DNA from: a virus
Virus record (IMG/VR): IMGVR_UViG_3300025128_000225
Location: 1 to 29,209 of that record
Reading direction: 5' to 3' (one strand)
Length of the DNA stretch: 29,209 nt
This document shows, piece by piece, positions 4,493 through 29,209 of the stretch. How positions within the stretch are numbered: the stretch's first letter is position 1; each line of letters begins with the position of its first letter. The notes under the pieces are model-generated. The model was given only the letters and a program-made list of their open reading frames with translations, was not told where the DNA came from and did not search any database. Made by a program: the position numbers and the translations under genes.

Positions 4493-7045
4493 ATGGCAAC
4501 TTATGTAAATGATCTCAGGCTGAAAGAAATCGCTACTGGTGACGAATCAGGAACTTGGGGTACAAGCACGAACACGAATCTTGAGTTAATTGCGGAAGCA
4601 TGGGGAAGTGGCTCAGAGGGAATTACCGGCACGACGCACACCATCACGATGGCTGATGGCGCTTCCGATGCTGCAAGAGCTTATGCCCTGACGCTGACAG
4701 GTTCTACTACGGCCACTAACACAGTTACTCTGGCTCCTAATACAGTCAACAAGACTTGGATTATTCAGAACAGTGCCGGATATCAGGTAACGATCTCTCA
4801 AGGCACAGGCGCTAACGTCGTGATTCCCAATGGCGGAATCAAGATGGTCGTTTGTGATGGCGCGGGTTCAGGAGCCGCAGTTACCGATGTCTTGGACATG
4901 ACGGGCGGCACGGGTAACGTAGGACTGGGTTCTGGCAATTTAGGTACAGCTTTAACGACCGGAACGGATAACGTCGCCATAGGTGAGGCCGCACTTGATG
5001 CGGTGACTTCTGGAACGGACAATACCGCAGTAGGTGATAACGCGGCAGGAGCGATTACAACAGGTGGATCGAACGTAGCCATTGGTTCTGGCGCTCTGCT
5101 GGTTGCGACCACGGCAAGTAATAACGTGGCAGTTGGTACGGCTGCACTTACGGCAAATTCATCAGGTACGGATAACGTAGCAGTCGGTGATGCAGCCGGG
5201 GATGCCGTTACAACTGGCTCAGACAACACCCTGATCGGTGATAACGCAGGCGGAGCCATAACAACGGGCGGAAACAACGTCGCGGTGGGTTCTGGTGCTC
5301 TACTGGTAGCAACCACCGCAGCCGAGAATACTGCGGTGGGAACGCTGGCTTTAACAGCTAATAGCTCTGGAACAGACAACACCGCAGTGGGATATGCAGC
5401 CGGGGATGCTGTTACAACGGGAAGTAATAATACTTTTGTCGGGGACAATTCTGGTGGGGCTACGACAACAGCCGATCATAACACTGCCGTGGGCGCTAGT
5501 GCTTTGCTGGTTAATTCTACCGGAGCATCAAATGTTGCGGTTGGTAAAAGTGCATTAGCTGCTAACACCACGGCTTCAAACAACACAGCAGTTGGTTATT
5601 TAGCTGGAGATGCAATTACTACAGGCGCATCTAATGTAGCGATAGGAAGAGATGCTTTAGGGGCATTGACTACTGTTAGTGATTTGACTGCGGTAGGTAG
5701 AGAGGCTTTAGTCGCGAACACAACGGGTACAGCGAATACTGCATTAGGTCGTACTGCGTTAGGGGCTAATACCACGGGAGCATCGAATACGGCAGTTGGG
5801 TATTTATCTTTAGACGCAAACACTACCGCCTCCAACAACACGGCAATGGGGTATGCCGCATTAGGGGCAAATACCACAGGCGCTGATAATGTTGCTGTCG
5901 GTTATGCTGCTTTAGATGCAAATACAACAGCAAGTGAAAACACGGCTGTAGGTTCATCTAGTTTAAGCACAAACAGCACTGGCGCAGAGAATGTTGCTGT
6001 TGGTTATAGTGCTTTATCAAACGCCACCACAGCAAGTTACAACACCGCAGTGGGTAAAAGTTCTTTAGGAAGCAATACAACAGGTGCTAACAACACTGCG
6101 GTAGGTAAAAGCTCTCTTAGTAGCAACACTACCGCAAGCCGCAACACTGCTGTGGGCAAAGACGCATTAACAGCAAATACCACAGGTGCAGAAAATGTTG
6201 CAGTGGGGTCGTTAGCCTTGGACGCGAATACAACAGGCAACCAAAATGTTGCTGTGGGAGACGCGGCCCTGAGTACCGCAACTACAGCGTCATCCAACAC
6301 AATGGTAGGTAAATCGGCAGGAAATGCGATTACCACGGGCGCAGAAAACGTGGGAGTGGGGGCTTCAGCACTGGCGGCTGCTACCACAGGCGGCAGCAAT
6401 GTTGCAATGGGCTATTTAGCTCTGGACGCTAATACCACGGCAAGCAGCAATACTGCTGTGGGAAGGGAGGCTTTATCAGCAAACAGTACAGGAGCCAGTA
6501 ATACTGCTCTTGGCCGCAACGCTGGCCTCAGTGTAACCACAGGCTCAAATAATCTTCTGCTTGGGTTCGATGCAGGTCAATCAGGCAGTCCCGGCGGTGC
6601 TATAAGCACAGGCAGCAACGAAATAGTATTAGGTGATGAAAATATTACCGAGGCGCATATCCAAGTGGACTGGACCGTTGCCTCTGACGCACGGGATAAA
6701 ACTGACGTAGAAGATTTGAATGTAGGCTTGGAGTTCGTTAATCAACTACAACCAAAAACTTACCGCTGGGATCAGCGTAGTCTTTATGGCGATGAAAGAG
6801 ACATTTTTCCTGATGGCACTTATAAGAAAGATCAGTTGGATGTGGGCTTTCTTGCACAGGATGTGAGTTCGTTAGAGGAGCAGCTAGGCTTTGGCAAATC
6901 AGACAAGAAAAATATAATCTCCAGTCTTAGTGAAGACGGGCAGATGTACGGACTTAAATACAGTAAGTTTGTGCCGATGCTGGTAAATGCTGTTCAAGAA
7001 CTATCGGCTGAAGTAGAGGAACTAAAATCGAAATTAGGAGAATAA
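4493..7045 (+). CDS. Tail fibre with YadA-head-like repeats and C-terminal S74 autoprotease/chaperone
   Basis: The product has 850 residues. Residues 1-156 form an N-terminal domain starting MATYVNDLRLKEIATGDESG. Residues 157-683 are 31 consecutive 17-residue repeats (consensus G/A-x-x-N-T-A-V-G-x-x-A-L-x-A-N-T-T), resembling the beta-roll repeats of trimeric adhesin heads. A longer unit and a linker follow. From about residue 730 comes an intramolecular chaperone domain of the Peptidase_S74 family. It has SDARDK with the catalytic pair Ser731 and Lys736 (same five-residue spacing as in endosialidase CIMCD), then YRWDQ, GFLAQDV, YGLKYSKFVPMLVNAVQEL and a terminal coiled coil. The family trimerises the fibre and then cuts itself off before the Ser, here leaving a fibre of about 730 residues. 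Likely the receptor-binding fibre. Confidence 0.88.
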   Translation: MATYVNDLRLKEIATGDESGTWGTSTNTNLELIAEAWGSGSEGITGTTHTITMADGASDAARAYALTLTGSTTATNTVTLAPNTVNKTWIIQNSAGYQVTISQGTGANVVIPNGGIKMVVCDGAGSGAAVTDVLDMTGGTGNVGLGSGNLGTALTTGTDNVAIGEAALDAVTSGTDNTAVGDNAAGAITTGGSNVAIGSGALLVATTASNNVAVGTAALTANSSGTDNVAVGDAAGDAVTTGSDNTLIGDNAGGAITTGGNNVAVGSGALLVATTAAENTAVGTLALTANSSGTDNTAVGYAAGDAVTTGSNNTFVGDNSGGATTTADHNTAVGASALLVNSTGASNVAVGKSALAANTTASNNTAVGYLAGDAITTGASNVAIGRDALGALTTVSDLTAVGREALVANTTGTANTALGRTALGANTTGASNTAVGYLSLDANTTASNNTAMGYAALGANTTGADNVAVGYAALDANTTASENTAVGSSSLSTNSTGAENVAVGYSALSNATTASYNTAVGKSSLGSNTTGANNTAVGKSSLSSNTTASRNTAVGKDALTANTTGAENVAVGSLALDANTTGNQNVAVGDAALSTATTASSNTMVGKSAGNAITTGAENVGVGASALAAATTGGSNVAMGYLALDANTTASSNTAVGREALSANSTGASNTALGRNAGLSVTTGSNNLLLGFDAGQSGSPGGAISTGSNEIVLGDENITEAHIQVDWTVASDARDKTDVEDLNVGLEFVNQLQPKTYRWDQRSLYGDERDIFPDGTYKKDQLDVGFLAQDVSSLEEQLGFGKSDKKNIISSLSEDGQMYGLKYSKFVPMLVNAVQELSAEVEELKSKLGE
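4961..6541 (+). repeat. Thirty-one in-frame 51-bp (17-residue) repeats in the tail fibre
   Basis: Thirty-one units of exactly 17 codons run from residue 157 to 683 without a single length change. A related 18-residue unit comes before and a longer GSNNLLLG unit after. Asn4 and Gly8 of the unit are nearly invariant (unit 15 has DLTAVG instead of N-T-A-V-G). Units partly alternate between G- and A-starting forms, as if 34-residue pairs had been duplicated. Between 4961 and about 5500 a higher-order period of several units is visible (GTDN, GSxN, GGxN, A-x-x-N). Confidence 0.9.
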
Positions 7046-22495: not shown

Positions 22496-22915
22496 ATGAA
22501 TCTTGGTATTGTGCTTGGTTTTTTACTGGTTGCCACCGCCGGAGGCTCTTACTTCTACATCAATATGCAGAAGGCCCAGATAGGTCAGCTTCAGGTAGAG
22601 CTTCAGACTGCGGTTAATAACCAAGAGGTTCTTGAAAACACAATTGCCAATCAAAATACGCAGTTGCAGGAGCAACTGGAAAACCAGAGGCTGAACCAGG
22701 TACGCATTACAGAACTAACTGAAGCTAACGATGAGGCCCGTCAGGAGGTCTCCGAGATGCGTAATACATTCGCCCGACATGACCTCAATAACCTCGCTAT
22801 CGCCCGTCCGGGGCTGATTGAGGGCGTTGTAAACAGGGGTACTGCACAGGTACACCAACAGTTCATTGATCTAACTAACCCGCGCCAATTCGATGAAGCT
22901 CCTGATATTCAGTAG
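22496..22915 (+). CDS. i-spanin-like inner-membrane protein (Rz-like)
   Basis: The 139-residue product has an N-terminal signal-anchor helix at residues 3-21 (LGIVLGFLLVATAGGSYFY). A long Gln/Glu/Asn-rich periplasmic coiled coil follows to about residue 95 (QIGQLQVELQTAVNNQEVLE, ITELTEANDEARQEVSEM), then a short polar tail. This is the plan of Rz-type inner-membrane spanins. The next gene, a lipoprotein, starts inside its 3' end (22893), as in two-component spanin pairs. Together they would connect inner and outer membranes and fuse them in the last lysis step. Shine-Dalgarno GAGGTAACT precedes the ATG. Confidence 0.8.
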   Translation: MNLGIVLGFLLVATAGGSYFYINMQKAQIGQLQVELQTAVNNQEVLENTIANQNTQLQEQLENQRLNQVRITELTEANDEARQEVSEMRNTFARHDLNNLAIARPGLIEGVVNRGTAQVHQQFIDLTNPRQFDEAPDIQ

Positions 22916-23294
22916 CCTGTTGTGCCTGACGGGATGCTCAACACTGGGAGGATTGTTTGGCAGAACCCCGGCTGTTCCTGAAGTCGCTCCGGTCGAGGTG
23001 GTTACAATCACCGAGCCTGCTCCTATGTACCATCCTCCGCTGCCTGAATCGGTAAGTCCTGCCGAGATTGAGTGGACAGTGCTGAACCCCAGCGTGATGC
23101 GCGAATACATTGATAATTACGATGAAGGTAATGCACCTGCACTTGCTTACTACGCGCTAACAGCCCAGACCTATGAGAACTTAGCCAATAATCTTGCTGA
23201 TATCAGGAGATATATCAGGCAAACACTTAACATCATTAAGTATTATCGGGACAATGATCCGACCAGGGACGAGCCAGAAACAACGGAAGAATGA
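22893..23294 (+). CDS. Outer-membrane lipoprotein, probable o-spanin
   Basis: The 133-residue product has a lipoprotein signal peptide with lipobox LTGC (Cys15; MKLLIFSSLLCLTGC). A Pro-rich stretch follows (TPAVPEVAPVEVV, MYHPPLPESV). Then comes a conserved-looking block IEWTVLNPSVMREYID and a helix TYENLANNLADIRRYIRQTL ending near IIKYYRDND. A Pro-rich lipoprotein partially overlapping the i-spanin gene by 23 bases is the usual o-spanin arrangement. At 133 residues it is longer than Rz1 of lambda, and the C-terminal helical block is a variant I remember from marine phages. The o-spanin role is therefore probable, not certain. Confidence 0.72.
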   Translation: MKLLIFSSLLCLTGCSTLGGLFGRTPAVPEVAPVEVVTITEPAPMYHPPLPESVSPAEIEWTVLNPSVMREYIDNYDEGNAPALAYYALTAQTYENLANNLADIRRYIRQTLNIIKYYRDNDPTRDEPETTEE

Positions 23295-23295
23295 T

Positions 23296-23607
23296 ATGGA
23301 CAATGAAACAATAAAGAGAAAAATCGACCTTGAGGTTGAAGTAACTCCTAACAATATCGGCGTAAACCCTTATCAGAAATGGGTTCATTTAGCTAAAACG
23401 ATAGACGCATGGCGTATCTTTCCGAGGGTCTTTGTCGGTGTATATATCTATCTTCTCTACGAGGTAGTAATTTGGTTTATGACACTGGAAGAACCTAATC
23501 TGGAACAAGCCGGTCTGGTGTCTGTTGTTGTCGGCGCTATGGCGGCGGTGTTTGGTATTTATGCCGGGACATCTCAGACTAAGAATTTCAAGGGTGAGGA
23601 GGAATGA
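23296..23607 (+). CDS. Two-span membrane protein (holin candidate)
   Basis: I take ATG 23296, just after the upstream TGA. A longer frame from 23194 would run through the lipoprotein gene. The 103-residue product has a polar N-terminal part (residues 1-30), then KTIDAWRIFPRVFVGVYIYL leading into the first span (about 42-63, ending in WFM). The second span is at about 72-91 (GLVSVVVGAMAAVFGIYAG), with a short charged tail. The pattern 'D-A-W-R-I-x-PR-x-F ... two spans ... FG-x-Y-x-G' is common in marine phages near spanins. Two spans and a charged tail are compatible with a class II holin. The next gene starts four bases before its stop. Confidence 0.7.
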   Translation: MDNETIKRKIDLEVEVTPNNIGVNPYQKWVHLAKTIDAWRIFPRVFVGVYIYLLYEVVIWFMTLEEPNLEQAGLVSVVVGAMAAVFGIYAGTSQTKNFKGEEE

Positions 23608-23885
23608 ACGAAGCCTTCTCGTTAATTGGAGATGTTGGCTTCCCGATTGCCATTGCCCTGATCGCAGGGTTTTTTATTTTCCTGACCATTAAGTACATTT
23701 TAGAATCGGTTATCGGTCAGGTGAATGGCATACACGGCATTGTGCAAGCCCTTGATAACAGGGTAAAAACCATGAATCATGATATTGTCAGGCTTGATGC
23801 AACGATGTGCAGCGTGTTGGGCATCAGGCCGGACCTGAACAGGATCGCCAGGGCAGACGGGAAAGAAGATGCAAGAAGAGATTAA
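23604..23885 (+). CDS. Single-span membrane protein with coiled coil (paralogue A)
   Basis: The ATG overlaps the upstream TGA (ATGA), with GAGGAGG-type Shine-Dalgarno GTGAGGAGG before it. The 93-residue product has GFPIAIALIAGFFIFLTIKY as a membrane helix at about residues 12-31. A short coiled coil follows (VQALDNRVKTMNHDIVRLDA), then a tail with GIRPDLNRIARADGKEDARR. The end 'LGIRPD-x-x-R-I-(S/A)RADGK-(D/E)DARRD' is familiar from many marine phages. It shares the GFPI span and the N-R-V-x-x-M-x-x-D-I-x-R-L coil with the next gene, so the two are tandem paralogues. Lysis regulation or membrane anchoring is possible; function unknown. Confidence 0.7.
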   Translation: MNEAFSLIGDVGFPIAIALIAGFFIFLTIKYILESVIGQVNGIHGIVQALDNRVKTMNHDIVRLDATMCSVLGIRPDLNRIARADGKEDARRD

Positions 23886-24142
23886 TGGATGTAGCAGCAG
23901 CAATCAGCGAGTACGGCTTTCCAATAGTCGCTACGGTGGGTCTGCTATACATGATCCATTATATTTGGTCGTTCATCACCAACAATATCAAGGCAAAACT
24001 GGCAGATGCTAATGTTACCTTGATTGCATTGATTGACCGCATCCGTATGTTAGATAACGATATCATACGCTTACAGCAGAAACTGGATACGGTCATTGAG
24101 CTTCGGGAGCAGAAAAATGAGAATATTGTTAATGATGATTAG
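23885..24142 (+). CDS. Single-span membrane protein with coiled coil (paralogue B)
   Basis: I take ATG 23885, overlapping the upstream stop (TAATG); a longer frame from 23807 is not needed. The 85-residue product reads MDVAAAISEYGFPIVATVGL, has a span at about 12-32 ending in HYIWSFITNN, and a coiled coil LIALIDRIRMLDNDIIRLQQ. It lines up with the preceding gene product over span and coil but lacks the RADGKEDARRD tail. The csgF-like gene starts inside its 3' end (24117), so translation of this membrane protein and of the curli module is probably coupled. Confidence 0.68.
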   Translation: MDVAAAISEYGFPIVATVGLLYMIHYIWSFITNNIKAKLADANVTLIALIDRIRMLDNDIIRLQQKLDTVIELREQKNENIVNDD

Positions 24143-24581
24143 TTTGCTCGCATTCCCTGCGGCAGCAACTGATTTGGTTTACCAGTTCAAGAGTCCTTCG
24201 TTTAACGGTATGGGGCAGTCCGCTCATTACCTGACGATTGACGAGCAGGAACGCACCCGGAGGCAGGCTATCCTTGAAAAAGCTGAGTCAAGGGCAGAGG
24301 AGCTTCTGAGAGAGCAGGAAAATACCACGCTCGCCAAGTTCATAAGAAATCTTGAGAGCCGTATCTTTTCCCAGCTTTCCAGGGATCTGGCTGAATCGTT
24401 ATTCAATTCCGAGGAAGGTGGGTCAGGCGGTGTATTTGATCTGGAGGGCAACAGCATTGCTTTCGTGAATACCGGCACTGAGATTATCCTCACAGTCACA
24501 GATGTGGACGGAGCAATTACGGAAATCAGAATCCCAATCGGTTCTTTCGGTATTTGCAGTACGGACGAGTGCGGTATCTGA
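24117..24581 (+). CDS. csgF: CsgF-like curli assembly factor
   Basis: I choose ATG 24117 (GGGAGC eight bases before). A TTG at 24096 in the same frame would put extra residues before the signal peptide. The 154-residue product has a signal peptide (MRILLMMISLLAFPAAA, cut after Ala17). The mature N-terminus TDLVYQFKSPSFNG corresponds to the E. coli CsgF start GTMTFQFRNPNFGG, the part that plugs into the CsgG channel. A charged helix follows (about 40-70, where E. coli has a shorter Gln/Asn/Ala segment), then IRNLESRIFSQLSRDLAESL and the C-terminal beta hairpins TGTEIILTVTDVDGAITEIR, as in CsgF. The end carries two Cys (GICSTDECGI) not known from E. coli. It overlaps both neighbours. In curli systems CsgF works at the outer surface, anchoring fibre nucleation to the pore. 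Confidence 0.87.
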   Translation: MRILLMMISLLAFPAAATDLVYQFKSPSFNGMGQSAHYLTIDEQERTRRQAILEKAESRAEELLREQENTTLAKFIRNLESRIFSQLSRDLAESLFNSEEGGSGGVFDLEGNSIAFVNTGTEIILTVTDVDGAITEIRIPIGSFGICSTDECGI

Positions 24582-25372
24582 TCCTATGCCTGGCAGGATT
24601 GACGCTTGTCGGCTGCGTGAGTGTTGATCCGTACCGATGCGGGACGCTAAGTAACTATTGCTCGCCGGAACCACGGGTAGAACGTCCGACACTGAATGAA
24701 CTGGTTAATCTGCCTATGCCCCGCCAGAAAGCGGTGGTCAGTGTCTATAACTTTTCAGACCTGACAGGGCAAAGGGCCACAGCGGACAACATGGCGTTAT
24801 TTTCTACCGCTGTGACGCAGGGCGCAGACAGCTTCCTGATTGACGCACTGATGGCTGCGGGAAATGGAAAGTGGTTTTTGGTGGCGGAACGTGGCGATCT
24901 GGATGCCCTGACGCGAGAACGACAACTGATTATTTCAACCCGAAATAGCTACGATGGAGAGGGATCTAATCGGTTGGAGCCGTTATTGTTTAGCGGTCTT
25001 ATCATGTCAGGCGGTATCATAGGTTATGACACAAACCTCATAAGCGGCGGTATAGGGGCGAGATACCTTGGCATAGGGGTTAGTAATCAGTATCGCGTAG
25101 ACGAGGTTACAGTGGCGCTCAGGGCCGTTCTGGTGCAGACCGGACAGGTGTTGCTGAATGTGATTACCAGTAAGCAGGTATATTCAACATCAACGGGATT
25201 TGATACTTTCAGGTTTACAGAAAATGGTACTGAATTGATAGAGGTGGAAGCCGGAGCAGCCAGGAATGAAACAGCGACATACGCTGTAAGAAGCGCAATT
25301 GAGCAGGCGGTTCTGGAGATAATACACCAGGGTATTGAACAGGATTTGTGGGATTACTCCACGGGAGGTTAA
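24569..25372 (+). CDS. csgG: CsgG-like outer-membrane curli secretion channel lipoprotein
   Basis: I choose GTG 24569 so that the signal peptide is MRYLILCLAGLTLVGC with lipid Cys16; TTG 24554 in the same frame is an alternative. The 267-residue product follows E. coli CsgG along its length. LVNLPMPRQKAVVSVYNFSD matches HLPAPTGKIFVSVYNIQD, then come TGQ and FSTAV at the constriction loop, and IIGYDTNLISGGIGARYLGI at about 150-169 (E. coli IIGYESNVKSGGVGARYFGI). The end SAIEQAVLEIIHQGIEQDLW matches SAIETGVIFLINDGIDRGLW. CsgG forms a nonameric pore that exports unfolded curlin. The constriction Phe (F78) is kept while the E. coli Tyr and Asn of that loop are not at the same places. Extra Cys24 and Cys31 lie after the lipid anchor. 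It overlaps csgF by 13 bases. Confidence 0.95.
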   Translation: MRYLILCLAGLTLVGCVSVDPYRCGTLSNYCSPEPRVERPTLNELVNLPMPRQKAVVSVYNFSDLTGQRATADNMALFSTAVTQGADSFLIDALMAAGNGKWFLVAERGDLDALTRERQLIISTRNSYDGEGSNRLEPLLFSGLIMSGGIIGYDTNLISGGIGARYLGIGVSNQYRVDEVTVALRAVLVQTGQVLLNVITSKQVYSTSTGFDTFRFTENGTELIEVEAGAARNETATYAVRSAIEQAVLEIIHQGIEQDLWDYSTGG

Positions 25373-25374
25373 AG

Positions 25375-26091
25375 ATGAGCAGGAACATCATTAAAACCTG
25401 TACAGCATATCTGCTGTTTTTGTATTCATTTGCTTATGCGGTATCTGCGTATAGCGCCAACAACTCGATATATATCACGCAATCGGGAGGATCGTCGGCC
25501 CTGACGATGAATATAGACCAGATCGGAAACTCTAACGTGGTCGGAACATCTCAGACAAGAGTCTCATTGTCAGGAACGAGCATGGTTGTAGACGTAGATC
25601 AAATCGGTGACTCAAATGTCATTGCCGCGTCAATCGCTCAAGGGAACAGCAGTTCGTTTACTCTGACAAGCACAGGTGACTCAAATACCCAGACTCTTGC
25701 AGTTGGAGGGACGGGGGATACGGCTGGCAGTGATTTCGATTTCGCCGCGACGGGGGACTCCAACGTCCTTACATTCACCCAGGGAGCGGCTGCAACAGCA
25801 ACGTCTGGAAATACCGACATCGTAATTGCCGGAACGTCTAACAATCTGAATCTGGTCAGTGAGGTGGTTGGTGGAACAAACAACTGGGATGTGGACGGCG
25901 ACTCAAACGACATCGACACAACCCAAACCGGAAATGCAAATCACTCCATCACCGCAGACATCACTGGTAATACCAACAATATCGACATTGACCAGACCAA
26001 TTCAGGCGGCAGCACTTCAGGCATATTGGATATTGTTGCGGTGACTACTGGCGGTGTGATTGACATTGACCAATGCACAAGTGGCTGTTAG
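25375..26091 (+). CDS. Secreted curlin-repeat protein 1 (putative amyloid subunit)
   Basis: ATG 25375 follows the csgG stop by two bases with GGGAGG upstream. The 238-residue product has a signal peptide ending around residue 28 (AYAVSAYSA), then SIYITQSGGSSALTMNIDQI and at least nine degenerate units marked by turns such as QIGNSN, QIGDSN, STGDSN, ATGDSN, DGDSND, QTGNAN and ITGNTN. This matches the logic of CsgA repeats (S-x5-Q-x-G-x-x-N-x5-Q), with stacked strand-turn-strand units. The first two and the last units are closest to curlin; the middle ones lose the Gln. It ends with a C-T-S-G-C pair. As the gene directly after csgG it is the obvious export substrate. Amyloid formation is not shown by sequence alone. 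The frame overlaps the next gene by 19 bases. Confidence 0.8.
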   Translation: MSRNIIKTCTAYLLFLYSFAYAVSAYSANNSIYITQSGGSSALTMNIDQIGNSNVVGTSQTRVSLSGTSMVVDVDQIGDSNVIAASIAQGNSSSFTLTSTGDSNTQTLAVGGTGDTAGSDFDFAATGDSNVLTFTQGAAATATSGNTDIVIAGTSNNLNLVSEVVGGTNNWDVDGDSNDIDTTQTGNANHSITADITGNTNNIDIDQTNSGGSTSGILDIVAVTTGGVIDIDQCTSGC

Positions 26092-27155
26092 TTTTTTTTC
26101 CACTGGCAGTTAATGCTCAAGTCGGTGAAATCACTGAGCTTAGAGGCGTTGGTGAGGTTGTTCGTCAGGACACGACGGATTCTCTCATAGCAGAACTGGA
26201 ACTCGGCATTGCCAGTTACGATGATGTGCGTACTGGTAATGGCAGGATGGCGATATCCTTCCTCGATGATTCTGTTCTGAGGCTTACTGAGCACAGCAAG
26301 ATTGTCATAGATGATTTTGTTTTTGATCCTGACCCGTCCCGTTCCCGGCTGGCTCTTAACATGGCGAGTGGTACGGCAAGGTTCCTTACAGGTGCGCTGG
26401 GGCGTATTAACCGTGAGAACATCAGTATCCGCACCCCTACGGCAACCATTGCGATACGAGGTACTGACTTCACCACGACCGTAGATGAGATAGGCCGAAG
26501 CCTGGTTATCCTGCTGCCCAATGAAGACGGCAGTGCCAGCGGCGAGATAACGGTAGAAACCACTGCCAGCGTGGTGGTTCTTAACCAGCCGTTTCAGGCA
26601 ACGATGACGACCGTTTCAGAGGCGGCTCCGACACGGCCCGTTGTTTTGTCAAATATGACACTGGGGTTCATTGATAACCTGCTCATTGTCAGTCCACCTG
26701 ATGAGATTGTGGAAGCGGTTGATGAGCAGTCAGGTACGGCCTCTAACATCCTAGATGTGGATCTGCTGGAAGAAACAGAACTTGATGAGAACGAACTGGA
26801 CGAGGATGAGTTACAGGACGAACTTGGCAGACTTGATATTGACCTGCTGAACGTCGATTTCCTGACTGACTTGCTGAACATTATCGAGGTATCGGCAACC
26901 GATAAAAAAGAGGTAGCCGAGATAGGTGGCGTAGAACTGGAGGGTATCCTGCCGGGATTCGATCAGCAGAACCAGACGTACACGTTTGTCGAAGGTGAGG
27001 TGCTGACGATTTTCAGAAGCGTTGAGAACACTTTCGACCTTGAGCTTGATAAGGGAAATTCTTATAACATCATGGTGATGACCGCAGGCAAGAAGCTCGA
27101 TATCACCGTGAACGGAGGGGGCGATAATGCGATTTATATTAATCAGTCTCCTTAG
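26073..27155 (+). CDS. Secreted FecR-domain protein with acidic region and curlin-like C-terminus
   Basis: The 360-residue product starts at ATG 26073 inside the end of the curlin-like gene. It has a short signal peptide (MHKWLLVFFPLAVNA, Ala15). A FecR domain covers about residues 45-150: YDDVRTGNGRMAISFLDDSV, LRLTEHSKIVID and the hallmark ISIRTPTATIAIRGTDFTT (117-135). FecR domains act as periplasmic or exported sensor/scaffold domains. Many lack the cytoplasmic anti-sigma part, as here. After a beta region an acidic Leu-Glu-Asp stretch (about 228-264) follows. The last 20 residues read DITVNGGGDNAIYINQSP, ending in a strand like the curlin unit S-I-Y-I-x-Q of both neighbours. It may bind, cap or nucleate the repeat proteins; this is inference. 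Confidence 0.82.
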   Translation: MHKWLLVFFPLAVNAQVGEITELRGVGEVVRQDTTDSLIAELELGIASYDDVRTGNGRMAISFLDDSVLRLTEHSKIVIDDFVFDPDPSRSRLALNMASGTARFLTGALGRINRENISIRTPTATIAIRGTDFTTTVDEIGRSLVILLPNEDGSASGEITVETTASVVVLNQPFQATMTTVSEAAPTRPVVLSNMTLGFIDNLLIVSPPDEIVEAVDEQSGTASNILDVDLLEETELDENELDEDELQDELGRLDIDLLNVDFLTDLLNIIEVSATDKKEVAEIGGVELEGILPGFDQQNQTYTFVEGEVLTIFRSVENTFDLELDKGNSYNIMVMTAGKKLDITVNGGGDNAIYINQSP

Positions 27156-27912
27156 TTTGCCTGTTTTTGCGTCAGATAATTCAATCGAGATAGACACCAA
27201 GGGTTCCAATACCAGTATCTACATCGACCAGATCGGGTCAGGCAATACCGCTCGCGTGTGGTGCGGATTGTCGAATGGAACCTATGCTACGCATACCTGC
27301 TCCAGTGCCACGATTGACATAGACCAGGACGGGACCGGAAATCTTGCCAAAGCCTATTCTCAGTACACAAACCATACCGGGAATGAATACACGATAAATC
27401 AGGATGGCAATGACAATATTGGTTACATAGATGCCGATGAAGACAACAACGAAATGACAATCACGCAAACGGGTGATGACAAGGAAGCTGAAATCTATAT
27501 GTCAGGCGATGATAATGTCTACACGATCAACCAATCAGGAACGGGAGAACATTACGCGAAGTTCTATGCCTTCGGGGATGATTCAACCTGGACAGCAACT
27601 CAGTCAGGCAGCGGCGATCATAATGCGTATATCAAGTCATGCAACAACTGCAACAACAACGATGCGACGATCACGCAGTCAGGCAGCGGTAACAAAGACG
27701 GGGATATTGAGTTCAGGAACAACCCGTCTGATAACTCAACGGTCAACCTGACGCAATCAGGTGACGGGGCGCACGTTGGCAATGTTCGCGTGGAGCAAGG
27801 GAACTATACCGTTAACGCTACGCAGAGCGGTGTAAGCGCAAAGTCCTATATTGCGGTGTTTGATTGCACGACAAACTGCAACAAGACCATTACCATCAAT
27901 CAGTACGACTAG
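27127..27912 (+). CDS. Secreted curlin-repeat protein 2 (putative amyloid subunit)
   Basis: ATG 27127 is preceded by GGAGGGGG and lies inside the end of the FecR gene. The 261-residue product has a signal peptide MRFILISLLSLPVFA. About ten repeats of the type I-x-I-x-Q-x-G-x-x-N follow: SIYIDQIGSGN, TIDIDQDGTGN, EYTINQDGNDN, EMTITQTGDD, VYTINQSGTGE, WTATQSGSGDHN, ATITQSGSGN, VNLTQSGDGAH, VNATQSGVS and a final TITINQ. These are clearer curlin-type units than in protein 1. The spacing varies, with Asp/Asn-rich insertions. Cysteines occur in pairs (VWC..HTC, CNNC, DCTTNC), uncommon in CsgA, and could form disulfides outside the cell. Rich in Asp and Asn, predicted very acidic. Probable second substrate of the CsgG pore. 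Confidence 0.85.
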   Translation: MRFILISLLSLPVFASDNSIEIDTKGSNTSIYIDQIGSGNTARVWCGLSNGTYATHTCSSATIDIDQDGTGNLAKAYSQYTNHTGNEYTINQDGNDNIGYIDADEDNNEMTITQTGDDKEAEIYMSGDDNVYTINQSGTGEHYAKFYAFGDDSTWTATQSGSGDHNAYIKSCNNCNNNDATITQSGSGNKDGDIEFRNNPSDNSTVNLTQSGDGAHVGNVRVEQGNYTVNATQSGVSAKSYIAVFDCTTNCNKTITINQYD

Positions 27913-27921
27913 GAGGCGCAG

Positions 27922-28185
27922 ATGGCTAAAAAGAAAAAGAAAAGGAATTATCGGAAGGAATACGATAATTACCAGGGCAAGAAAAAGCAGAAGAAGCGTC
28001 GTGCTGCCCGTAATTCCAGTCGTGCTGCGATGAAAAAGAGGGGCAGGGTCTCGAAAGGTGACGGAAAGGACGTACATCATAAGGACGGCAACCCCAAAAA
28101 CAAAAAGGCCAGCAACCTGAAGGTGACTTCCAAGGCTAAGAACAGGTCGTTCAGGAGAACAAAGAGCGCCGGGAAAAAGCGGTAA
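27922..28185 (+). CDS. Basic protein with partial HNH-like motif
   Basis: ATG 27922 follows a strong AGGAGG. The 87-residue product is strongly basic over residues 1-48 (MAKKKKKRNYRKEYDNYQGK, KKQKKRRAAR). It then carries DVHHKDGNPKNKKASNLKVT at 50-69 and KAKNRSFRR. The pattern 'VHHKDGN-x-x-N-x-x-x-NL-x-x-x-x-x-x-x-N' is the core of HNH-type nucleases (His52/His53, Asn57, Asn65), but the usual Cys pairs or a further His are missing. Small proteins like this are frequent in marine phage genomes and annotated as HNH-like. Whether this one cuts DNA is doubtful. It is out of place in a secretion module, so it may have hopped in. Confidence 0.7.
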   Translation: MAKKKKKRNYRKEYDNYQGKKKQKKRRAARNSSRAAMKKRGRVSKGDGKDVHHKDGNPKNKKASNLKVTSKAKNRSFRRTKSAGKKR

Positions 28186-28448
28186 TGTCAGGAAATTTGA
28201 ACAAAAGACAGATTGTTGAGGTTGTCTGGCAAGATGCCTGGATCAGCCCGGAAAATATGTTGTCTAAAGACCAGGATAATTCTTTGCCGGTTCTGCGATC
28301 TGCAATGGGCTATGTGATTTCCAAAGATAATGAGGAATGTCTTATTTTGTCTACTGATCTGTATGAGAAGGCACCGGGAATCGTCAATGCTCCTATGGTC
28401 ATCCCCTGGGATTCGATTATCGAATGGTATGAGTTTCAGGTGCATTGA
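28185..28448 (+). CDS. Small conserved phage protein, 87 aa
   Basis: The start overlaps the preceding stop (TAATG). The product contains RQIVEVVWQDAWISPENM, then a strand set MGYVISKDNEECLILSTDLY and an end VIPWDSIIEWYEFQVH. Proteins of this pattern ('V-x-V-x-WxDS ... SxGYL(V/I)xxDxxxxxLAxxxxxx ... IPxxxIxxxxxL') occur widely in phages of aquatic bacteria, and no role is known to me. It lacks signal peptide and membrane segments, so it stays in the cytoplasm, unlike its neighbours. The stop overlaps the TTG start of the next gene (TTGA). Confidence 0.68.
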   Translation: MSGNLNKRQIVEVVWQDAWISPENMLSKDQDNSLPVLRSAMGYVISKDNEECLILSTDLYEKAPGIVNAPMVIPWDSIIEWYEFQVH

Positions 28449-29209
28449 AAACTCTGCTAACTTTACTGGCTGCGTTATTGCTTTTTCGGGTCATTGATCC
28501 GTGGCCTGTCGAGACCCTGAGACTCAAATACTTCGATGCGCTGCTAACCATTAAAGAGCCGGTCGAAAGCCAGAACATCTCCCTCTACAACATTGACGAA
28601 GCCGCATTAGCAGACGGCGGTCAATGGCCGTGGCCCAGGCAGCAGCTTGCACAGCTTAATCAAAATCTTTTCGATGCAGGCGCTGCGGCCGTGGTGTATT
28701 CGGTGCTGTTTCCAGAAGAAGACCGCTTTGGTGGCGATTCCGAGTTTGCCGAGAGCATGGCCCGGATGCCGACATTCCTCTCTGCGGTAGCCACAGCCGA
28801 CACGGATCGGCAGGACGGCTGGCACATCGGCGTAGCCACGCTGGGTCAGGTCAATGAGAATGCCATCAATTATTCGGGCATCCTGCCTAATGTTTCTGTG
28901 CTGCAAGAAGCGGCTGTCGGTACGGGAGTAGTGAATACCGCTCCAGAGGTAGATGGGCTGGTCCGCAGAGTGCCGATGGTGGTCAGAGTTGGGGAGAGTC
29001 TGTACCCGGCCCTTGGGCTTGATGTCCTGCGTGGACTGGCCGGAGACCCCTCCTACCAGGTCAGAGGATCTGAGACAGGCATAGAGGCGGTCAGGGTGCC
29101 TAGCTTCGATACCATCAATACCGATGCAGCAGGCAGGGTATGGATAGACTGGGGAACCACGTTTGCCCAGCAACCTATCAATGGAACTATCATCTTTGTC
29201 GGTGTAACT
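28445..29209 (+). CDS. CHASE2-domain membrane sensor protein, 3' end outside window
   Basis: The frame is open from TTG 28445, in a TTGA overlap with the previous stop, to the window end. It gives 255 residues; no earlier start is possible in frame without crossing the upstream gene. Residues 1-17 are a hydrophobic signal anchor (MKTLLTLLAALLLFRVI). A CHASE2 domain follows: RLKYFDALL, ISLYNIDEAAL, GGQWPWPRQQLAQL (58-71), AAAVVYSVLFPEED, GTGVVNTAPEVDGLVRRVP, YPALGLDVL and GTIIFVGVT at the edge. CHASE2 is a periplasmic sensor domain normally fused to histidine kinases, adenylate/diguanylate cyclases or Ser/Thr kinases, with membrane spans behind it; that part is cut off here. Four 60-bp blocks sampled in this gene contain 142 G+C of 240, higher than blocks I counted upstream (27-33 of 60), which may mark transfer. 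Confidence 0.88.
   Translation, partial: MKTLLTLLAALLLFRVIDPWPVETLRLKYFDALLTIKEPVESQNISLYNIDEAALADGGQWPWPRQQLAQLNQNLFDAGAAAVVYSVLFPEEDRFGGDSEFAESMARMPTFLSAVATADTDRQDGWHIGVATLGQVNENAINYSGILPNVSVLQEAAVGTGVVNTAPEVDGLVRRVPMVVRVGESLYPALGLDVLRGLAGDPSYQVRGSETGIEAVRVPSFDTINTDAAGRVWIDWGTTFAQQPINGTIIFVGVT

Follow-up and report, generated by a model that had tools for sequence, protein, structure and literature searches.

A curlin-type end on the FecR protein of a phage curli module suggests a link between the fibre and a CHASE2–adenylate cyclase

The stretch of DNA analysed here (the window) covers positions 1 to 29,209 of the IMG/VR virus record IMGVR_UViG_3300025128_000225, a contig of 29,209 bases from a marine phage. 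It codes on the late strand only, and virion genes are followed by lysis genes and then by a module for curli, the product of type VIII secretion. The Pfam families of the module occur in the order CsgF, CsgG, curlin 1, FecR, curlin 2, and CHASE2. The FecR-domain protein ends in a curlin-like strand, and the CHASE2 protein is, judged from its residues, a class III adenylate cyclase with intact catalytic positions and predicted synthesis of cyclic AMP (cAMP). The curlin-type end suggests that the FecR–cyclase pair might be wired to the fibre itself. We tentatively propose, with a confidence somewhat short of even, that FecR links the export or assembly of curlin to the CHASE2-cyclase; FecR would have to be exported, to bind curlin, and to contact CHASE2. 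Coordinates given below without a locus name are those of the window, and all of these features lie on the plus strand.

The gene of the exported FecR-domain protein (26073..27155; PF04773, E-value 1.4e-11; AlphaFold2 model and Foldseek) lies between the two curlin genes, and the Pfam result agrees with the position and description given in a preliminary description of this DNA. The last strand of the window FecR is NAIYINQSP; the codons of the curlin-like C-terminal segment, GGDNAIYINQSP, occupy 27117..27152 and, in a different frame, overlap the beginning of curlin 2. Of 145 unique phage FecR proteins, which are related sequences and not independent events, 143 have a C-terminal end of the form [ILVFY]x[ILVFY]xQ plus 0-4 residues. 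The IxIxQ-type end is rare elsewhere: it was found in 0/144 cyclases, 5/139 CsgG, 1/128 CsgF, and 10/1791 other open reading frames (ORFs). In the curlins, the last such strand lies within 9 residues of the end in 130 of 133 curlin 1 proteins, and within 3 residues in 116 of 132 curlin 2 proteins. The FecR end, G-D/E-N-x-I-x-I-x-Q-S, aligns position by position with the mature N-strand of curlin 1, G-N-N-D-I-Y-I-T-Q-S-G. Across 60 diverse FecR proteins, Q358 is the sole invariant residue after L254 (the last 106 positions), and I354 and I356 are conserved in at least 90%. No PF07012 match was found in FecR, which has a single curlin-type terminal strand; thus it is not a curli subunit with several repeats.

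The FecR end overlaps the start of curlin 2 in most loci. Gene overlap was ruled out as the cause of the conserved end, because 13 loci that have no curlin 2, with gaps reaching 914 bases, keep the end; in 11 of these 13, FecR and the next gene overlap by no more than 4 bases. In the literature searched, no mention was found of the curlin-type end, or of a link between FecR and curlin beyond that of Wittmers 2022.

The AlphaFold2 model of the window FecR (mean predicted local distance difference test score, pLDDT, 76.6) has three parts: the FecR domain (residues 16-180), an acidic linker of low confidence (221-278), which is probably disordered judging from the model, and a C-terminal beta domain (281-358). 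A signal peptide is present. No later hydrophobic segment was found in the window FecR, nor in 155 of 178 relatives. The Foldseek search matched the FecR domain to the anti-sigma cell-surface signalling domains 4m0h and PupR 6ovk, and the FecR-domain fold is common to these regulators and the phage protein. It also matched 5ix9, the domain that anchors an RTX adhesin at the cell surface (root-mean-square deviation 1.5 Å over 62 columns, 26% identity), with a weak sequence match as well (E about 1e-3). The phage FecR differs from the FecR/PupR regulators in having neither a cytoplasmic anti-sigma domain nor a transmembrane helix. Only chance-level matches to additional Pfam families, such as an anti-sigma domain, were obtained for the phage FecR proteins, and no sigma factor or TonB receptor family was found among the neighbour proteins scanned. 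The rest of the RTX adhesin is unrelated to the phage FecR, and no RTX repeats or type I secretion genes were seen. In bacteria, the reading frames with a FecR domain can be very long, up to thousands of residues.

The CHASE2 gene (28445..29209; PF05226, 1.4e-27) has a TTG start about 1.3 kb past the FecR stop, as had been described, and is cut by the window end after residue 255 of 609. A second contig, L004, overlaps the 3' end of the window by 4179 bp at 99.76% identity and carries the full gene (L004:3415-5244). The protein of 609 residues contains a CHASE2 domain (1.2e-38) and a class III cyclase domain (PF00211, 2.7e-20), separated by several hydrophobic segments. The preliminary description had asked for the sequence beyond 29209, to see whether the protein continues into a cyclase, a kinase, or only membrane spans; a cyclase it is. 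All six key catalytic positions of the L004 cyclase carry the adenylate-cyclase set DKDDNR, that is, the metal-binding Asp pair, the adenine-specifying Lys and Asp, and the transition-state Asn and Arg. The same set was found in 123 of 148 unique phage cyclases.

In L004, the CHASE2-cyclase gene is followed by a hairpin whose T-run lies on the opposite strand. Beyond it are mostly opposite-strand phage genes, including those of a Sak-type annealing protein and a PD-(D/E)XK nuclease; there is also a RusA gene. The hairpin and these phage genes indicate that the CHASE2 gene belongs to this phage and closes its late operon, the end of which is formed by the curli module. An assembly chimera, which the preliminary description had named as the possible error, was ruled out by the overlap and by the continuation into phage replication genes.

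The viral contigs were scanned three times, with CHASE2, CsgG, and FecR as queries, and about 220 loci were obtained. These loci are relatives of the window's own genes, and the figures that follow describe one lineage and not all phages. Among the viral loci with enough flank, FecR and curlin were found within 6 kb of 93/93 csgG genes, CHASE2 within 6 kb of 90/93 csgG genes, and csgG within 6.5 kb of 73/74 CHASE2 genes. The co-occurrence of csgG, fecR, and CHASE2 in other phage contigs, which the preliminary description had proposed as a check, is thus far above chance. The order csgF-csgG-curlin-FecR-curlin-CHASE2/cyclase is nearly invariant among the related contigs, and the same order was found in the phages HTVC008M and Melnitz. 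In three loci (L062, L072, and L081), the CHASE2-cyclase lies on the strand opposite to csgF-csgG-curlin-FecR-curlin, yet adjoins them.

The curli genes of the window encode CsgF (24096..24581; PF10614, 1.8e-15), the outer-membrane curli pore lipoprotein CsgG (24554..25372; PF03783, 3.6e-49), the CsgA/B-like curlin 1 with the mature N-terminus NNSIYITQSG (25348..26091; PF07012, 1.2e-6, and the N-strand consensus), and curlin 2 (27127..27912; PF07012, Curlin_rpt, 2.1e-14, 6 stretches). CsgG of the window shares 45-48% identity with CsgG of HTVC008M and Melnitz. No match to csgD, csgE, or csgC was found among the proteins scanned, with the window representing about half of the genome. In HTVC008M, a PA14 domain (2.7e-6) is fused ahead of the repeats of curlin 2 (L002:6598-7923); this fusion suggests that the fibre may display a binding domain, which fits a role in adhesion or "sibling capture".

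The FecR–CHASE2 pair is also known from bacteria. In 337 genomes of Alphaproteobacteria, 32 of 104 CHASE2 genes among the matches listed lie within 5 kb of a FecR gene, where a rough density estimate predicts about 0.7. The count refers to CHASE2 genes in genomes with a listed FecR, taken from the best 150 matches of each list. The earlier statement that the two are often neighbours in bacteria therefore holds for this class. In 20 bacterial FecR–CHASE2 loci, the CHASE2 protein mostly has a class III cyclase at its C-terminus; the remainder differ at the C-terminus and gave no cyclase match. The curlin-type end was found in none of the 20 bacterial FecR proteins from these loci. In the BiofilmReg operon of Burkholderia, which affects biofilm, an exported FecR protein likewise stands beside a CHASE2 membrane signalling protein (PMC5192318). 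The Burkholderia FecR has LysM, its CHASE2 partner is a histidine kinase, and no curli genes are nearby, unlike in the phage module.

Bacterial curli operons were rejected as the source of the pair. FecR, CHASE2, cyclase, and the small membrane proteins described below were found in 0/24 bacterial csgG loci of Pseudomonadota (4 + 20), with flanks of about 9 kb, shorter at contig ends. The pair is common in bacteria, yet absent from these 24 curli loci, so FecR–CHASE2 is an addition to curli in the phage module. A scan of genome contigs with the phage FecR identified mostly phage-like contigs inside metagenome bins.

The window represents a further member of an already published set of phage curli clusters, and the set itself is not new. 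Wittmers 2022 reported nine HTVC023P-type podophage genomes and pelagimyophages with a curli cluster including FecR and adenylate cyclase (PMC9599517). The csgF/csgG part was reported in phages by Zaragoza-Solas 2020 (PMC7029224), and in Melnitz, a myophage of OM43, by Buchholz 2022 (PMC9004378). The clusters of Wittmers 2022 and the window, completed by L004, agree in their genes and gene order (csgF, csgG, curlin, FecR, the second curlin, adenylate cyclase); the window has two extra small genes ahead of CHASE2. The genes and order of the Melnitz curli region are also as in the window. The CHASE2 domain, the bacterial FecR–CHASE2 pairing, and the curlin-type FecR end are not named in the text, as searched, of Wittmers 2022 and Zaragoza-Solas 2020. 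Three points are new: that the pair originates from bacteria, that FecR has a curlin-type end, rare outside curlins as read from the sequences, and that the cAMP output is an orphan. The curlin-like FecR end offers a specific and cheap handle on whether the FecR–cyclase pair is wired to the fibre, and so bears on why amyloid genes of bacteria are carried by abundant phages of the ocean.

The proposed coupling might work as follows. FecR would be exported, and its curlin-like last strand would bind curlin subunits or the growing fibre. The FecR domain would lie on the periplasmic side, within reach of the CHASE2 domain of the inner-membrane cyclase, and the FecR–CHASE2 pair would report curlin export or assembly as cAMP. 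In a more far-reaching form, which we regard as rather unlikely, the phage would possess an amyloid-monitoring circuit: FecR, through its curlin strand, would sense curlin export or fibre growth, switch the CHASE2-cyclase, and bring cAMP signalling into cells which, like those of SAR11, for the most part have neither cyclases nor cAMP-binding proteins. In bacteria, by analogy, a FecR protein carrying a different C-terminal part would inform its CHASE2 partner about a different structure of the envelope. It had been suggested previously that the phage monitors the host envelope; this is too broad, as the curlin strand at the end of the FecR proteins points more specifically to the phage's own curlin.

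Several observations weigh against the coupling. AlphaFold2 sets the last strand inside the C-terminal beta domain, so it may be merely structural. A few loci retain FecR without a detected CHASE2 (L093 and L104). In 7 of the 148 unique phage cyclases, those of Melnitz and six relatives, the catalytic set is DKDSSR, although FecR and curli remain; the transition-state Asn and the adenine-specifying Asp are thus lost, and these cyclases are probably inactive or altered, whereas the population of the window has DKDDNR. Cyclases of the Melnitz type occur in L003, L052, L066, L062, L072, L076, and L079. The reception of cAMP is a further difficulty. A cyclic nucleotide (cNMP)-binding domain is absent from 75 of 79 SAR11-family genomes (four have one). 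A phage-encoded receptor was also considered and rejected: no cNMP-binding protein was found in 15 curli-phage records, including the complete HTVC008M and Melnitz, in a search for receptors of this type. Only 3 of the 79 SAR11-family genomes have a class III cyclase match, two of them being bins in which phage-like FecR contigs were found. The suggestion in the preliminary description that the phage tunes host signalling is thus right about a second messenger, as a prediction from the intact cyclase residues, but has no known receiver in SAR11. The orphan output poses a sharp puzzle, namely what reads cAMP in SAR11 cells.

The main alternative is that FecR serves in the curli apparatus as a structural component, whether anchor, nucleator, or plug, and does no sensing, while the cyclase responds to something else. 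In detail, the FecR domain would sit at the outer membrane or in the periplasm, the linker would span the CsgG pore, and the end would join the fibre in place of CsgB, of the missing CsgE, or of both. The curlin-type end, the resemblance of the FecR domain to the RTX adhesin anchoring domain in both sequence and fold, the probably disordered linker, and the very long frames of bacterial FecR proteins are all consistent with such a part. It leaves unexplained why a CHASE2-cyclase stands after FecR with such regularity in phages, and so frequently in bacteria that have no curli, and we consider it somewhat improbable.

It is unlikely that the cyclase acts on the host independently of curli, whether it raises cAMP, uses up ATP, or interferes with cyclic-nucleotide defence, with the FecR end merely the last strand of a beta domain. 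The catalytic residues are intact in most phage cyclases, and the AlphaFold2 placement of the FecR end would agree with this explanation. However, the cyclase is almost never apart from the curli genes in these contigs (73/74), the SAR11 hosts mostly have no cNMP-binding protein, and the curlin resemblance of the FecR end would be a coincidence. A role of the module in lysis, with a CsgG/CsgF pore timed with lysis as proposed for Melnitz (PMC9004378), appears quite improbable. The module does lie directly downstream of the spanin genes in the window, but the curlin genes and the FecR–cyclase pair are retained in the same order across phages, and the Melnitz proposal assumed no other curli genes, whereas the Melnitz record annotates curlin and FecR genes. 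The suggestion of Wittmers 2022 that FecR regulates curli transcription in response to iron or ferric citrate fits the FecR domain and its PupR-like fold, but it is highly improbable, since the findings on FecR argue against it: the cytoplasmic anti-sigma part and the transmembrane helix are absent, and the neighbour proteins scanned include no sigma factor or TonB receptor family.

Directly 5' of the curli module, on the same strand, a spanin pair and a possible holin were found at 22496-23607. They comprise an inner-membrane Rz-like spanin (22496..22915; phrog_739, Rz-like spanin, 3.3e-10), an Rz1-like outer-membrane spanin lipoprotein with the lipobox LTGC in its sequence (22893..23294; phrog_812, Rz-like spanin, 4e-12), and a small protein with two hydrophobic segments predicted from hydropathy, which is holin-like by position only (23284..23607; phrog_10198, function unknown). 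These are followed by smTM1, a coiled protein of 93 residues with a single transmembrane segment (23604..23885; phrog_18771, 1.2e-28), and by its paralogue smTM2 of 85 residues (23885..24142; same PHROG, 9.8e-26, and alignment). This family accompanies the phage curli genes even where its position shifts; among the phage records, smTM1 was present only in the curli phages HTVC008M and Melnitz. The C-terminal end of smTM1 is a conserved DxRRD. The clusters of Wittmers 2022 have a "histidine kinase" before csgF, whereas the window has these two small proteins without a kinase domain there. No kinase family was matched by smTM1 in Pfam or NCBIfam, so it is not a histidine kinase. Because of their location before csgF, smTM1 and smTM2 are probably what those authors annotated as such, a naming difference matched by position. 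The interval used to check for large genes upstream of csgF takes in virion genes.

In the window phage, two small genes separate curlin 2 from CHASE2. One encodes a small basic HNH-like protein (27922..28185; PF13392, 1.5e-6, and relatives), and the other an ORF of 87 residues with unknown function (28185..28448; weak phrog_25889, and relatives). Close relatives carry the HNH-like gene as an insert at the same place. It also occurs at other places in related loci (e.g. L118 and L183), which suggests a mobile gene. Among the virion genes, a virion stabilisation-type protein is closest to those of Phage DSL-LC04, Roseobacter phages CRP-901/902, and Pelagibacter phages HTVC023P/HTVC027P. A protein of 850 residues at 4493-7045 has many TAVGxxAL-type repeats and a C-terminus resembling the chaperone/peptidase S74 type; by eye, it is probably a tail fibre.

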